Assembly: GCA_004299845.1 (NCBI GenBank) | Contig: CP036201.1 | Span: 3,906,001-3,970,000 of the forward strand | Length of the DNA: 64,000 nt | Origin: Verrucomicrobia bacterium S94 | GTDB taxonomy: Bacteria; Verrucomicrobiota; Kiritimatiellia; Kiritimatiellales; Pontiellaceae | Direction: 5' to 3' | Part shown: piece by piece, positions 12,443-41,362 of the stretch | How positions within the stretch are numbered: position 1 is the stretch's first letter | Layout: each line of letters starts with the position of its first letter | The notes under the pieces: generated by a model | Seen by the model: only the letters and a program-made list of their open reading frames with translations | Database searches by the model: none | What the model was told of the DNA's origin: nothing | Position numbers and translations under genes: made by a program

Positions 12443-13503
12443 ATCTTAATGATTTAAGAAAGCAGATCGACTCGCTCGATTCTGAAATTGTTAAACTCCT
12501 CAATGAGCGCATTAATGTTGTGCTGAAGATTGGAGAGGAAAAGAAAAAAGAGGGAGCGGAAATTTATGTGCCGTCCCGTGAACGTGCGGTATTTGATAAA
12601 ATCAAATCACTGAATTCCGGGCCGCTGCCCGAGGAATCGGCCCACGCGATCTACCGTGAAATTATGTCGGCCGCGCTGGCGCTGGAAACGAACATGAAGA
12701 TTGCCTATCTCGGTCCGGAAGCCACGTTCACGCATCAGGCGGCGCGGAATAAATTCGGCGTCAGTGTGGATTATATTCCAACCAGTACAATTGCCGAAGT
12801 GTTCGACCGTGTGGCCAACCGTACAGCGGATTACGGTGTGGTGCCGGTGGAAAATTCCACCGAGGGTGCCGTGACGCATACCTTTGATCAGTTTGCCAAC
12901 ACCTCGCTTAAAATCTGTGCGGAGATTTATCTGCCGATTTCCCTGACGCTGCTTTCGCGGCATCAGAAGGACGAGATCCGCCTGATTTTCAGTAAGCAGG
13001 AAGCGTTCGGGCAATGCCGTGCCTGGCTGGCGGGGAATATGCCGAATGCTAAACTTTCGCCGGTGGAAAGTACGACGAAGGCGGTGCAGCTGGCGCTGGA
13101 AACGCCCGGTGCTGCAGCGGTGGCGAGTGTGATGGCTTCGGATATGTACGACATCGAGGTGCTGGCGGAAAATATTCAGGACATGCAGGGCAATACCACC
13201 CGCTTCCTGATCATCGGCCAGGATTACAGTGAGCCGACCGGCAATGATAAAACCTCTGTGATGTTCGGTGTGAAGCACAAGGTCGGAGCGTTGTACGATG
13301 CCCTTTCGGTGTTTAAAGCCGACAACATCAACATGACAAAGATTGAGTCGCGCCCCAGCCGGAATAAAAACTGGGAATATTACTTCTTTGTCGATATCGA
13401 CGGTCACGCCGATGATCCGGAAGTGAAGCGCGCTCTCGAAGCGCTGCAGGAGCACTGCACGGTCATGACGGTGCTCGGTTCTTATCCCAAAGCGGAAATG
13501 TGA
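12439..13503 (+). CDS. pheA: Bifunctional chorismate mutase / prephenate dehydratase
   Basis: Converts chorismate to prephenate and then to phenylpyruvate, the committed steps to phenylalanine. A chorismate mutase type II domain fills residues 1-85 (LRKQIDSLDSEIVKLLNERI). Prephenate dehydratase follows from ~86 (KIAYLGPEATFTHQAA), with the TRF catalytic motif at 254-256. An ACT regulatory domain begins at ~271 and contains the ESRP motif (303-306), which in the family mediates feedback inhibition by phenylalanine. The 354-residue length matches the P-protein. It overlaps the scpB stop by 4 bp and the next gene's GTG start by 4 bp, so it is locked into this operon. Confidence 0.96.
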   Translation: MNLNDLRKQIDSLDSEIVKLLNERINVVLKIGEEKKKEGAEIYVPSRERAVFDKIKSLNSGPLPEESAHAIYREIMSAALALETNMKIAYLGPEATFTHQAARNKFGVSVDYIPTSTIAEVFDRVANRTADYGVVPVENSTEGAVTHTFDQFANTSLKICAEIYLPISLTLLSRHQKDEIRLIFSKQEAFGQCRAWLAGNMPNAKLSPVESTTKAVQLALETPGAAAVASVMASDMYDIEVLAENIQDMQGNTTRFLIIGQDYSEPTGNDKTSVMFGVKHKVGALYDALSVFKADNINMTKIESRPSRNKNWEYYFFVDIDGHADDPEVKRALEALQEHCTVMTVLGSYPKAEM

Positions 13504-14615
13504 ATCCGCCGATGTCTTTAAGCCTGTCAGAACTGAAGCTGTTCAGGGAGGTGGTTTCACTGCCGACGGCCCCGTTCTGCGAATCGAAGGTCCAGGCGTT
13601 TGTACGTGAATGGGCGGCCGGGAACGGGATCGGTTTTGAAGAGGATAAAGTCGGGAATATCCTGCTGACGTATAAAACGCCCGGGCGCGCACCACAGCAT
13701 CCGTGGGTGCTGCAGGCGCATATGGACCATCCCGGATTTGAATGGAACTCCCGGCGGGGCCGCACGGTACAGGCCTGGTTCCGTGGCAGTGTGGGGGAAC
13801 ATTATTTTCCCGGCGCGCGCATGCAGTTTTTTCCACTTACCGGTAATCCGGTTTCCGGGACGGTGGAGGTGGTCCGGCGGGACCGGGAGAGCGGTTTTCT
13901 GAAGTGTCGGATTAAACTGGATGAAGCCGTTCCGTTGGAGCCGGGAACGCCGGGTATGTGGGAACTGCCGCCCTGGAAAAAGCGTGGAAACCGGCTTGAG
14001 CTGCGGGTGGTCGATGATCTGTGCGGTGTGGTTTCGATATTGATGACCTTGAAACGGCTTAAGGATTCGGGGGCGCGACGAAAGGTGTACGGCCTGCTGA
14101 CCCGTGCCGAAGAGGTCGGTTTTGTCGGCGCAATTTCGGCGGCGAAAAACCGGCTGGTCGATCCGGCGTTTCCCATCCTTGGAATCGAAGCTTCAAAGGC
14201 ACAGCCGAATGCGAAAATCGGACAGGGGGCTATTGTCCGGGTGGGTGATGCTTCGACTGTTTTTGATCCGGAATTGACGTCGAGTCTCCGTAAAACGGCG
14301 CGCGCGTTACACCGTGCAGATCCGTCGCTGAAATTTGTGGAATCGCTGATGCCGGGCGGAAGCTGTGAGTCGACCGGGCTGGCTTTGCTGGGTTACCGCA
14401 CCTGTGCGGTCTGTCTGCCGCTGGGTAGTTATCACAATATGGGTGCATCGAAGATCGAAGCGGAAAAAATTGATCTGCGTGATTTTGAATCAATGGTTGC
14501 TCTGCTGACGGAGGTTTCGCAGACGAAACCGGGAGATTCGAATACAGCGGAACTGAAGAAACGGATGCTGGAAAATCACCGGAAACGGGCAGAGTTGCTT
14601 TATGGGTGGAAATGA
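13500..14615 (+). CDS. M42-type metallopeptidase
   Basis: 371 residues. Dinuclear-metal aminopeptidase fold: HMD at 74-76, the bridging-Asp motif VVDDLCG at ~170-176, the catalytic pair EE at 204-205 in RAEEVGFVGA, and a late His in GSYHNMGA. These are hallmarks of the M42 (glutamyl aminopeptidase/endoglucanase-like) family of cytoplasmic aminopeptidases. The GTG start at 13500 overlaps the pheA stop; an ATG at 13512 is an alternative. Substrate cannot be read from the sequence. It is the last gene before the leuA leader region. Confidence 0.85.
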   Translation: MNPPMSLSLSELKLFREVVSLPTAPFCESKVQAFVREWAAGNGIGFEEDKVGNILLTYKTPGRAPQHPWVLQAHMDHPGFEWNSRRGRTVQAWFRGSVGEHYFPGARMQFFPLTGNPVSGTVEVVRRDRESGFLKCRIKLDEAVPLEPGTPGMWELPPWKKRGNRLELRVVDDLCGVVSILMTLKRLKDSGARRKVYGLLTRAEEVGFVGAISAAKNRLVDPAFPILGIEASKAQPNAKIGQGAIVRVGDASTVFDPELTSSLRKTARALHRADPSLKFVESLMPGGSCESTGLALLGYRTCAVCLPLGSYHNMGASKIEAEKIDLRDFESMVALLTEVSQTKPGDSNTAELKKRMLENHRKRAELLYGWK

Positions 14616-14618
14616 GGG

Positions 14619-14648
14619 TTGACAGTTTCCCGGAATTGGAACTAGGTT
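14619..14648 (+). promoter_or_regulatory. Candidate sigma-70 promoter of the leu leader
   Basis: TTGACA at 14619-14624 is followed after 18 bp by TAGGTT at 14643-14648. If used, transcription would start around 14655, only a few bases before the leader ATG at 14659, giving a nearly leaderless leader peptide. The -35 matches consensus exactly and the -10 is weaker. It lies immediately after the upstream peptidase gene. Confidence 0.5.
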
Positions 14649-14658
14649 ACCGAAAGTT

Positions 14659-14736
14659 ATGAAACGTGCATTCAACAACCTGCTGCTAGGCCTGCTACTC
14701 ACTGGGAAAGATCCTGTGGAGGCGGTTTGCCTATAG
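14659..14736 (+). CDS. leuL: Leucine-rich leader peptide of leuA attenuator
   Basis: A 25-codon frame starting MKRAFNN, followed by three Leu codons (14680-14688), one Gly, three more Leu codons (14692-14700) and a last Leu just before the TAG. Seven of 25 residues are leucine and three use the usually rare CTA codon. It lies 29 bp ahead of a strong terminator and 205 bp ahead of leuA. By analogy with enterobacterial leuL, ribosome stalling at the Leu codons when leucyl-tRNA is short would permit read-through into leuA. The peptide itself is not expected to have another function. There is no good ribosome site, so translation may start at or very near the 5' end. Confidence 0.72.
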   Translation: MKRAFNNLLLGLLLTGKDPVEAVCL

Positions 14737-14762
14737 TCTGTTGATTGAATCAACCACTTTTG

Positions 14763-14798
14763 AAAAACCTCTGCAGGGAAACCCGCAGAGGTTTTTTT
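14763..14798 (+). terminator. Attenuator terminator upstream of leuA
   Basis: The 10-bp stem AAACCTCTGC (14765-14774) pairs with GCAGAGGTTT (14785-14794). A GGG/CCC inner stem and AAA loop lie inside it, and a T7 run ends at 14798. The 5' arm segment CCTCTGCAGG (14768-14777) can instead pair over 10 bases with CCTGTGGAGG (14713-14722) at the end of the leader reading frame. This gives a mutually exclusive antiterminator. A ribosome stalled at the leucine codons leaves 14713-14722 free; one reaching the stop codon covers it. Confidence 0.8.
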
Positions 14799-14940
14799 GT
14801 GTTCAGCGCTGCGGATTAATATTGGGAACCGGAAAGCGGGGGCGTGTATTTCGGTGTTTGTCCGTGGCTAGAAAAAATGTGAATGAAATGGAATAGAAAA
14901 GCAGGGTTGGATAAATTAAGCCCTTTTGCAGGAGAGAAAA

Positions 14941-16617
14941 ATGAGTGTACCAAAATACAGAATTCCGGAGATGATTGATATTCCGGATCGTCAGTGGCCT
15001 TCAAAGAGCGTCACACAGTCGCCGATCTGGTGTTCAGTGGATATGCGCGACGGAAACCAGGCACTGCCTGATCCGATGGATCCCGATCAGAAACTTGAAT
15101 ATTTTAAAATGCTCTGCGATCTCGGGTTTAAACACATTGAAATCGGGTTCCCGTCAGCCAGTGCAGATGAATTCAACTTTTTCCGGACGCTGATCGAAGA
15201 GGACCTCATACCGGATGATGTCTTTATTATGGGGCTCACGCAGTCGCGCCCGCATCTTATTGAAAAAACGATGGAGGCGTTTAAAGGCTGTAAGCGGGGG
15301 ATTGTTCATGCCTACATTGCACCGTCGGATCTGCATATGAAGCAGGTTTTCGGTATGGAGCGCGAGCAGTTGGTTGAAACGGCTGTGGCCGCCACCCGGC
15401 AGATTCGCGAACTGGCTGATCAAATGCCGGAATCGGATATCCGCTATGAATTTTCTCCGGAAGAGTTTACCGATACAGACGTGGATTTTTCTGTCGAACT
15501 CTGCAATGCGGTATTTGACACGTGGGGCAAGGCTTCGCCGGAAAAACCGATGATTATGAATCTTCCGGCGACGGTGGAACGCCGCCCGCCGAATCATTAT
15601 GCCGACATGATCGAACTCTTCTGCCGCAAGGTGAAACACCGTGACCGCATTCTGGTATCTCTCCATTCCCATAATGACCAGGGGATGGCCGTGGCAGCTA
15701 CAGAGCTGGCTTTGATGGCCGGGGCGGATCGCGTGGAGGGCACGCTCTTCGGACATGGCGAGCGTACAGGTAATGTCGATCTCGTTACCTGCATCAGCAA
15801 TCTCTATTCGCGGGGCATTGAAACCGGTATCGATTTTTCCGATCTCGGGCACGTGGCGGAAACAGTGGAACGTCTTACCGGCATGCCGATCTATTATCGC
15901 CAGCCGTATGCCGGCAGCTATGCCTTCACGGCCTTTTCCGGTTCGCATCAGGATGCTATTAACAAGGGCGTGCATAAGCTCAAAGAGGCTCCGGATATGT
16001 TCGGTATGGGCTGGAAGGTGCCGTATCTTCATATCGATCCGGCGGACCTCGGCCGTAAATTTGAGCGGTTGATCCGCATCAATTCGCAGTCGGGCAAAGG
16101 CGGCATTGCATGGGTGCTGGAGCAGGATTTCGGGATTGAAATCCCCAAGGCCATGCAGCCGGAACTCGGTCGCTATGTGCAGGGCTACAGCGAAAAGGTC
16201 GGTCGTGAAATCAGTGCCGATGAAGTGTATGAGGTTTTTCTGCATGAATTTGTGTCGCCGGAGGGACCGTATGAACTCATCGGATACTGGCCGCGGCCGG
16301 ATGATGCCGACCCGACTTTTATTCACGGTGAGGTGAAGCTGAAGATCAATGGCGAAGAAAAAACCATTCAGGCCGATGGAAACGGGCCGATTTCGGCTTT
16401 CGTTTCTGCAATCCGGCAGGTGGTGGATGTTGATTTTACTGTGGATGACTATCATGAACAGGCTATCGATAAAGGAGCCGATGCTCAGGCACTTGCCTAT
16501 GTCCCACTTAAATTGGCGGGTAACGGCGTGATTTTCGGTGTCGGGGAAAACTCAAATATCAACCAGGCGGCAGTGCGCGCCATTGTTGCCGGCCTGAACC
16601 GTATTACTAAAAAATAG
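14941..16617 (+). CDS. leuA: 2-isopropylmalate synthase (LeuA type 2)
   Basis: Condenses acetyl-CoA with 2-oxoisovalerate, the first committed step of leucine synthesis. The 558-residue protein belongs to the longer type 2 subfamily: MRDGNQALPDPM (35-46), the metal-binding SLHSHNDQG, and GTLFGHGERTGNVD. A C-terminal region from about 430 should be the LeuA regulatory domain that binds leucine. The ATG at 14941 sits 8 bp after GCAGGAGAG; an in-frame start at 14926 would place that site inside the gene. The upstream leader and terminator indicate control by leucine attenuation. aroE follows after 10 bp. Confidence 0.95.
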   Translation: MSVPKYRIPEMIDIPDRQWPSKSVTQSPIWCSVDMRDGNQALPDPMDPDQKLEYFKMLCDLGFKHIEIGFPSASADEFNFFRTLIEEDLIPDDVFIMGLTQSRPHLIEKTMEAFKGCKRGIVHAYIAPSDLHMKQVFGMEREQLVETAVAATRQIRELADQMPESDIRYEFSPEEFTDTDVDFSVELCNAVFDTWGKASPEKPMIMNLPATVERRPPNHYADMIELFCRKVKHRDRILVSLHSHNDQGMAVAATELALMAGADRVEGTLFGHGERTGNVDLVTCISNLYSRGIETGIDFSDLGHVAETVERLTGMPIYYRQPYAGSYAFTAFSGSHQDAINKGVHKLKEAPDMFGMGWKVPYLHIDPADLGRKFERLIRINSQSGKGGIAWVLEQDFGIEIPKAMQPELGRYVQGYSEKVGREISADEVYEVFLHEFVSPEGPYELIGYWPRPDDADPTFIHGEVKLKINGEEKTIQADGNGPISAFVSAIRQVVDVDFTVDDYHEQAIDKGADAQALAYVPLKLAGNGVIFGVGENSNINQAAVRAIVAGLNRITKK

Positions 16618-16627
16618 GGATCTGAAG

Positions 16628-17491
16628 ATGAAGTTGAGTGGACATACTAAACCGTTCGCTGTGCTGGGGCATCCGATCGGGCACACGCTGTCGCCGGTCA
16701 TGCACAATGCCTCGATGGAGGAGTTGAACTTTGATGGTATTTATCTGGCGCTGGATGTGCATCCGAACCGCCTGATGGAGGTGTTGCCGTCGATGGCGCT
16801 GATGGGTTTTGCCGGCGTCAACCTGACCGTTCCGCATAAAGAGGTGGCTTTCCGAGGACTTGAAAAGCTGGATGCGAGTGCGGAGCTGTTCGGCGCAGCG
16901 AATACGGTTGAGTTTACCGAAGAGGGGATGGTCGGTCATAATACTGACGGTTATGGTTTTCTGAAGGCGCTGGAAGAAGCGTTTGGTAAAACTGTTCAGG
17001 GCGACCGGATTTTTGTGTTGGGTTGCGGCGGAGCAGGGCGGGCCACAGCGTTGCAGGCGGCAGTCGAGGGCGCAAAAGTGCTGGTGCTGGCTGATATCGA
17101 TGCAGAACGGGTCCAGCGGCTGGAAGATGAAGTGAAGGCACTTGTTCCTGATGTGGAAATTTTCCAGGCTTTGGAAAAGGAGAAGCAGATTGAACTGTGC
17201 CGCGCATGCGATCTGGTGGTGCAGGCTTCGCCGGTGGGGATGAAAAAGGACGATCCTTCGCTGCTTCCGCCGGAAGCATTCAAAGAGGGGCAGCGCGCTT
17301 TTGACCTGATTTACATGTATCCCGAAACCGCATTCCTGACCACAGCGCGCGAAGCTGGCGCGCAGATTGCTAATGGGTTGGGTATGCTGCTGCATCAGGG
17401 CGCGCGCGCCTTTGAAATCTGGACCGGCACCGAGCCGTCGGTTCCGGCGATGCGCAAAGCGCTGGAAGATGCCGTTTACGGGAGTGATTAA
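16628..17491 (+). CDS. aroE: Shikimate dehydrogenase
   Basis: NADPH-dependent reduction of 3-dehydroshikimate to shikimate, in the common aromatic pathway. The 287 residues show the substrate-binding start AVLGHPIGHTLSPVMHNA, VNLTVPHKE with the catalytic Lys, NTDGYGF, and the nucleotide-binding GCGGAGRAT. The C-terminal NGLGMLLHQGARAFEIWTG is also typical. It is 10 bp after leuA, and its TAA overlaps the ATG of the next gene (TAATG), so leuA, aroE and the peptidase are likely one transcript. Confidence 0.96.
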   Translation: MKLSGHTKPFAVLGHPIGHTLSPVMHNASMEELNFDGIYLALDVHPNRLMEVLPSMALMGFAGVNLTVPHKEVAFRGLEKLDASAELFGAANTVEFTEEGMVGHNTDGYGFLKALEEAFGKTVQGDRIFVLGCGGAGRATALQAAVEGAKVLVLADIDAERVQRLEDEVKALVPDVEIFQALEKEKQIELCRACDLVVQASPVGMKKDDPSLLPPEAFKEGQRAFDLIYMYPETAFLTTAREAGAQIANGLGMLLHQGARAFEIWTGTEPSVPAMRKALEDAVYGSD

Positions 17492-41199: not shown

Positions 41200-41362
41200 G
41201 ACGGGTTTATTCCCGTTCGGCTGGATCGAACCGTGGTCGTCTTCTGGCTTCCGGCTTCCTGTCGACACCCTTCCGGGCTATGCCCGTGGACCGTGTCGAT
41301 GCTCCGGTTACAGCGGCGCGTCCGCGACGGATTTTCACCGTTTTCCGTTACCAGCATTCGTA
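41200..41362 (-). promoter_or_regulatory. Cobalamin riboswitch of metE
   Basis: On the minus strand, GGTGAAAATCC (41339-41329) is followed by GCCGCTGTAACCGG (about 41316-41303). Then come GC-rich paired arms and the B12 box AGCCAGAAGAC (41249-41239), all in the order of the AdoCbl riboswitch core. Downstream, ACGGG/CCCGT and GTTCG/CGAAC hairpins lie just before the metE ribosome site, suggesting translational control; no T run follows. Ends are approximate. Confidence 0.9.

Follow-up and report, generated by a model that had tools for sequence, protein, structure and literature searches.

A very probable ribosome-mediated leucine attenuator ahead of leuA in a relative of Pontiella

The leuA locus and its leader promoter

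We examined a 64,000-nt stretch of DNA (the window) that sits in a 4.1 Mb single-contig genome. The closest named relatives of this genome are Pontiella sulfatireligans, Pontiella desulfatans and Pontiellaceae isolates (Kiritimatiellota), which bears out an earlier reading made from the sequence alone (the sequence-only reading) that had placed the DNA in a probable PVC genome. The same reading had called the LeuA encoded here type 2, and this assignment also held: the protein carries HMGL-like, IPMS_D2 and LeuA_dimer domains and scored 718 against NF002991 (cut-off 455), with the type 2, yeast-like model TIGR00970 second-best, although slightly under its cut-off (653 versus 697). The aroE gene (TIGR00507, over cut-off) lies 10 nt 3′ of leuA, and from this close spacing the two genes are likely carried on one transcript. 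The preceding gene (13500-14615) encodes a peptidase-like protein, and its stop codon is 3 nt 5′ of a −35 box. Elsewhere in the window, a cobalamin riboswitch at 41239-41346 (− strand) exceeded its Rfam gathering score. The promoter, leader and genes are as follows.

14619..14624, + strand: −35 hexamer TTGACA
14643..14648, + strand: −10 hexamer TAGGTT, 10 nt before the leader AUG
14659..14736, + strand: leader ORF of 25 codons, MKRAFNNLLLGLLLTGKDPVEAVCL, with 7 Leu codons (3 CTA)
14680..14700, + strand: putative regulatory Leu run, CTG CTG CTA GGC CTG CTA CTC
14941..16617, + strand: leuA, type 2 2-isopropylmalate synthase, the gene predicted to be regulated
16628..17491, + strand: aroE

The gene downstream of the leader is thus the cognate one for a leucine attenuator. 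The promoter is kept in relatives at a fixed distance from the leader AUG, in line with the proposal of the sequence-only reading that a consensus −35 gives an almost leaderless leader mRNA. TTGAC was present 39-40 nt 5′ of the leader AUG in all 17 genus members with sequence coverage, the spacing to the −10 is nearly fixed at 17/18 nt, and the −10 in genus relatives is mostly TATGTT, with its end 10 nt from the AUG. Most members of the sister family have TTGACA at −38 to −44 from the leader AUG. The −10 of the host genome itself (TAGGTT) is poor, and a simple promoter/terminator scan made no call at the leader region, a probable consequence of rules that exclude TAGGTT and a bulged stem. Judging from hexamer position, transcription would start ∼7 nt past the −10, 2-5 nt before the leader AUG. 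Because the −10 ends 10 nt from the AUG, the leader mRNA would be almost leaderless, and a start so close to the AUG would leave no room for a Shine-Dalgarno sequence.

Leucine codons of the leader

The 25-codon frame, with its seven Leu codons and three CTA, was found exactly where the sequence-only reading had placed it. The 64 kb window contains 593 short ATG ORFs, counting both strands; this was the sole one with 6 Leu in 7 codons, and it was still the one match when this requirement was loosened to 5 Leu in 7 codons; when first-order Markov sequences of the same region were generated, 3 in 20,000 reached its Leu density. A comparison of orthologous ORFs in the genus revealed a coding-type substitution pattern, as expected for a short translated ORF with a run of cognate codons. 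Codon columns 9 and 12 were Leu in all 18 leaders, with 105 and 89 synonymous pairwise differences, respectively, and no non-synonymous ones. The remaining Leu columns tolerated some Arg, Gln or Pro, and overall there were many synonymous and few non-synonymous changes. Insertions and deletions within the ORF were all 3 nt (one codon), and a 4-nt gap was seen just 3′ of the stop codon.

The choice of Leu codon was also distinctive. CTA accounted for 1.3% of Leu codons in the 48 genes of the window versus 39% in the genus leaders, and for 46 of 115 Leu codons (40%) in the genus leaders versus 3 of 585 (0.5%) in leuA of the same genomes; since the leaders are related, the counts lack independence and P values are not to be read at face value, but the effect size is nonetheless clear. 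The sister family showed the same bias (5 of 34 in leaders versus 0 of 218 in leuA). For the E. coli leu attenuator, CUA was predicted to be the most suitable control codon, and in Salmonella the replacement of CUA by CUG lowered attenuator sensitivity (PMC1183508). By analogy, the same logic may be valid for the tRNAs of Pontiella.

Alternative RNA structures and a model for switching

Downstream of and overlapping the leader ORF, we found the elements of a putative three-part RNA switch.

14667..14752, + strand: protector (anti-antiterminator), from MFE folds, predicted to sequester the antiterminator 5′ arm
14713..14722, + strand: antiterminator 5′ arm, CCTGTGGAGG, pairing with 14768-14777
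14768..14777, + strand: antiterminator 3′ arm, CCTCTGCAGG, within the terminator 5′ arm and loop
14766..14798, + strand: intrinsic terminator, stem AACCTCTGC/GCAGAGGTT (14766-14774 / 14785-14793) with T7 at 14792-14798

Both the terminator with its T7 and the 10-base antiterminator that excludes it had been described in the sequence-only reading and were recovered here. The terminator lies between the leader ORF and leuA; 99.4% of cells in the genus alignment were paired, three pairs showed compensatory changes, and the covariation score was matched by none of 500 shuffles. A strong terminator with a T-run follows the leader ORF by 15-28 nt in the genus and the sister family, which, together with its covariation in the genus, makes it highly improbable that control is exerted at translation (by coupling or Rho) rather than by an intrinsic terminator, as has been discussed for some actinobacterial leu leaders. 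Such control would be in keeping with the Leu-rich ORFs that precede leuA in the wider Verrucomicrobiota, which mostly lack an obvious terminator.

The antiterminator is an unbroken run of 10 pairs, including two G-U pairs, and because its 3′ arm shares bases with the terminator 5′ arm, the two structures are mutually exclusive. Across the genus, 88% of cells were paired versus 34-62% when the pairing was slid, and the antiterminator was weaker in some species. No compensatory change was found for it within the genus; each arm has a second partner, in the protector for the 5′ arm and in the terminator for the 3′ arm, which leaves little freedom to covary, an explanation that we do not offer as proof. 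When the check proposed in the sequence-only reading, for conserved Leu runs and covariation in both stems, was run on relatives, the Leu runs, frame, promoter spacing and both pairings proved to be kept and the terminator to covary, but the antiterminator does not covary within the genus.

Support for the antiterminator therefore comes from its conserved pairing and from the pairing of different sequences in other lineages. G+C-rich arms pair promiscuously, which made a cross-lineage arm-swap matrix uninformative, and we used dinucleotide shuffles of trimmed hairpins instead. Shuffles as good as the native sequence numbered 8 of 500 for the genus, 7 of 500 for the sister family, 9 and 123 of 500 for the two members of the class-level family f6, and 28 of 500 for f16. 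Contigs of metagenome-assembled genomes labelled Sumerlaeota, Planctomycetota and Phycisphaerae, labels that may be wrong, gave 8, 25 and 1 of 500, respectively. The antiterminator thus beat most shuffles in seven lineages, each with different sequences; those of L045 and L063 were no better than roughly one-fifth of the shuffles.

In the predicted protector, UUCAACAAC pairs with the GUUG region past the stop codon, UAGGC pairs with GCCUA, and GGGA/UCCU forms a hairpin. The protector was stable in folds, its inner hairpin and GGC/GCC pairs are kept in the genus, and a comparable fold built from different sequence occurs in the sister family. Its covariation did not exceed that of column shuffles within the genus, and neither it nor the antiterminator is taken as proven by covariation. 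Overall, the leader RNA folded 4.3 sd more stably than dinucleotide shuffles. The protector stems may also account for an odd feature of the peptide: typical genus leaders read M[KR]NEFNNLLLGLLL.GNDPVEAVCL, and within the genus FNN, GNDP and the near-terminal Cys show no or almost no variation. Conserved residues outside the Leu run (FNN, GNDP, VCL) could point to a function of the peptide itself, either as a small protein or through a stall of its nascent chain. However, the conserved codons belong to predicted RNA stems (pairing of UUCAACAAC with the GUUG segment, the GGGAAUGAUCCU hairpin and GGC/GCC), the FNN, GNDP and VCL nucleotides are largely invariant as well, while Leu codons drift synonymously, and the sister-family peptide ends differently (LREFCAC) with a comparable fold. 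We consider an action of the peptide itself very unlikely.

A second conserved element lies at 14879-14940, directly before leuA (consensus AATGGATAAGAAAANCGGGGTTGTTTAGATTANGCCCC..TTTTAGGAGAG), and is possibly a hairpin, an operator or a translation element. Twenty genus genomes retain it, even though the stretch that separates it from the terminator is not conserved. A role as a repeated regulatory site was dropped, as no convincing second copy was found in the host genome. Immediately ahead of leuA, several relatives have what resembles a further coding leader of about 20 aa (M[KE]WN..GLFKL..); we discarded this candidate, since other relatives, L034 among them, do not preserve the frame.

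One could argue from this conserved element, and from the variable distance between terminator and leuA (∼50 to several hundred nt among relatives), that leuA is transcribed from a promoter of its own near 14880-14930; the terminator would then end an upstream transcript or make a constitutive short RNA, and the Leu-rich ORF would be incidental. Yet a simple scan found no sigma-70-like promoter between the terminator and leuA. Moreover, the selection on Leu codons, the CTA enrichment, the promoter at a fixed distance from the AUG and the retention of the alternative pairing in separate lineages all speak against this explanation, to which we assign very little probability.

The attenuation reading also agrees with the geometry of the leader. 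Taking a standard footprint size for the ribosome, we presume that Leu codon 14 (14698-14700) in the A site would leave the RNA free from ∼14711-14713, and that a ribosome that has reached the UAG (14734-14736) would mask most of 14713-14722. Geometry and pairing are those of a mutually exclusive antiterminator that stalling would free. When the ribosome position was imposed during folding, RNA lacking a ribosome folded into protector plus terminator, a ribosome stalled at codon 14 with polymerase at 14780 gave the antiterminator, and a ribosome at the stop codon gave the terminator. At equilibrium, the full-length stalled RNA favored the terminator (−33.0 versus −25.2 kcal/mol), so antitermination would have to be kinetic.

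We propose the following model. RNA would start ∼2-5 nt before the leader AUG, and a ribosome would load on the nearly leaderless 5′ end. When leucine is ample, the ribosome would reach the UAG and cover 14713-14722, and the terminator (14766-14798) would halt transcription ahead of leuA. If charged leucine tRNA is short, above all the CUA-reading one, the ribosome would stall at 14680-14700 and disrupt the protector; the freed 14713-14722 segment would pair with 14768-14777 before the terminator 3′ arm exists, and RNA polymerase would continue into leuA-aroE. If the leader is untranslated, the protector would hold 14713-14722 and the terminator would form. We conclude, with high confidence, that the leader is a ribosome-mediated leucine transcription attenuator ahead of leuA.

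Known systems and distribution among relatives

Searches of Rfam at gathering and relaxed thresholds returned only chance matches at the leader region, with no covariance match to Leu_leader (RF00512) or to a T-box. The leu attenuator of E. coli and Salmonella has a protector, an antiterminator and a terminator ahead of leuA; the Pontiella-like leader has an antiterminator and a terminator in the same place, together with a predicted protector. Both also have a Leu-rich leader ORF (leuL in the enterobacterial system, RF00512) with rare CUA control codons before leuA (PMC1183508 for CUA). The present leader differs in lacking an RF00512 or other Rfam sequence match, in its predicted near-leaderless start where the enterobacterial leader has a ribosome-binding site, and in preceding a type 2 leuA whose neighbor is aroE, not leuBCD.

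Precedent for the near-leaderless start comes from the Corynebacterium glutamicum ilvB leader, in which the start codon and the transcription start are one nt apart and an anti-antiterminator is present (PMC11857589). The ilvBNC attenuator follows the three-hairpin logic predicted here (PMC11857589, PMC10272879) but regulates ilvB, uses Val, Leu and Ile codons and belongs to a different phylum, with no evidence of shared ancestry. The actinobacterial LEU element, too, precedes leuA and includes a leader peptide that contains a Leu run; it is a pseudoknot in which Leu codons pair with the leuA Shine-Dalgarno sequence (PMC1262725), in contrast to the intrinsic terminator and antiterminator found here. 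Such pairing is unlikely in our case, since the leader stop is 204 nt from leuA, and up to about 520 nt in relatives. For the PVC group, the sole proposal of a leader-peptide attenuator that we found is the putative TrpL of Chlamydia trachomatis trpRBA, which is unvalidated, 59 aa long, lacks consecutive Trp codons and is predicted to be a poor attenuator (PMC7755916). Until 2010, reports of leader peptides came from Proteobacteria and Actinobacteria alone; Firmicutes joined the list in that year (PMC2965389).

The leader is present in 19 other genus genomes (one a remnant) and in ten sister-family genomes, and nearly all genus genomes with a contig reaching far enough carry an orthologous leader before leuA. 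A covariance model built from 18 genus leaders, with the sister family kept out of training, matched 20 genus genomes (including the L052 remnant) and 10 sister-family genomes (E 2e-8 to 2e-5 in the latter). Matches sit just before leuA or a cupin-leuA unit, with one true leader per genome, apart in position from G036, where the leader is on a contig separate from a truncated leuA. The only two extra matches were weak, on the opposite strand and at the same spot. Thus, the leader is not a multi-copy element.

Several relatives depart from this layout. In L034 (an 8.7 Mb genus genome), L010 and L043, the leader is ∼600 nt upstream of leuA with a small cupin gene between them, which would then share leucine control; in L010 this gene encodes a ChrR-type cupin (PF12973) and lies at about 480-85 nt upstream of leuA, and that in L034 is similar. 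The L052 remnant, ∼270-150 nt upstream of leuA, has kept the −35 and terminator and lost most of the Leu ORF and the −10 by deletion. Two small genomes, L053 and L054, had no leader. L062, a 3.9 Mb single-contig sister-family genome, has an early TAA just past the Leu run and before the antiterminator arm (175-127 nt upstream of leuA), a natural variant for the role of the run-to-stop distance.

Beyond these families, three class-level genomes (f6 and f16) have a Leu leader with a terminator in the same layout and with unrelated sequences. We also examined another 51 regions upstream of leuA, nearly all of them from other families of Verrucomicrobiota; ATG ORFs with at least 4 Leu in 8 codons occurred in 14 versus 2.2 expected from shuffles, and with at least 5 Leu in 8 in 5 versus 0.2 expected. 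Most of these Leu-rich ORFs had no terminator recognized by the scan. Leu-rich short ORFs before leuA, mostly with no recognizable terminator, were seen in L090, L106, L107, L111, L114, L119, L121 and L124 of other Verrucomicrobiota families. We tentatively suggest that leucine leader-peptide control of leuA may be an old, widespread trait of Verrucomicrobiota/Kiritimatiellota and some neighboring phyla, that it may have arisen or persisted independently of the systems in Proteobacteria and Actinobacteria, and that in Kiritimatiellota at least it may rely on near-leaderless leader mRNAs.

The mechanism is classical, being textbook knowledge in E. coli; what is new is its occurrence in a phylum for which we found no description of a leader-peptide attenuator, in either Kiritimatiellota or Verrucomicrobia, in the open-access literature, so that translation-coupled attenuation would extend to this group. 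The 30 related leaders are a natural set for testing how attenuator switches evolve, and the leader would offer a ready-made leucine-responsive reporter in a group for which genetic tools are few. If the attenuation reading is true, Kiritimatiellota couple transcription tightly to translation, and a ribosome can load there on a nearly leaderless leader; judged from its sequence, this bacterium very probably makes leucine only when leucine is scarce.
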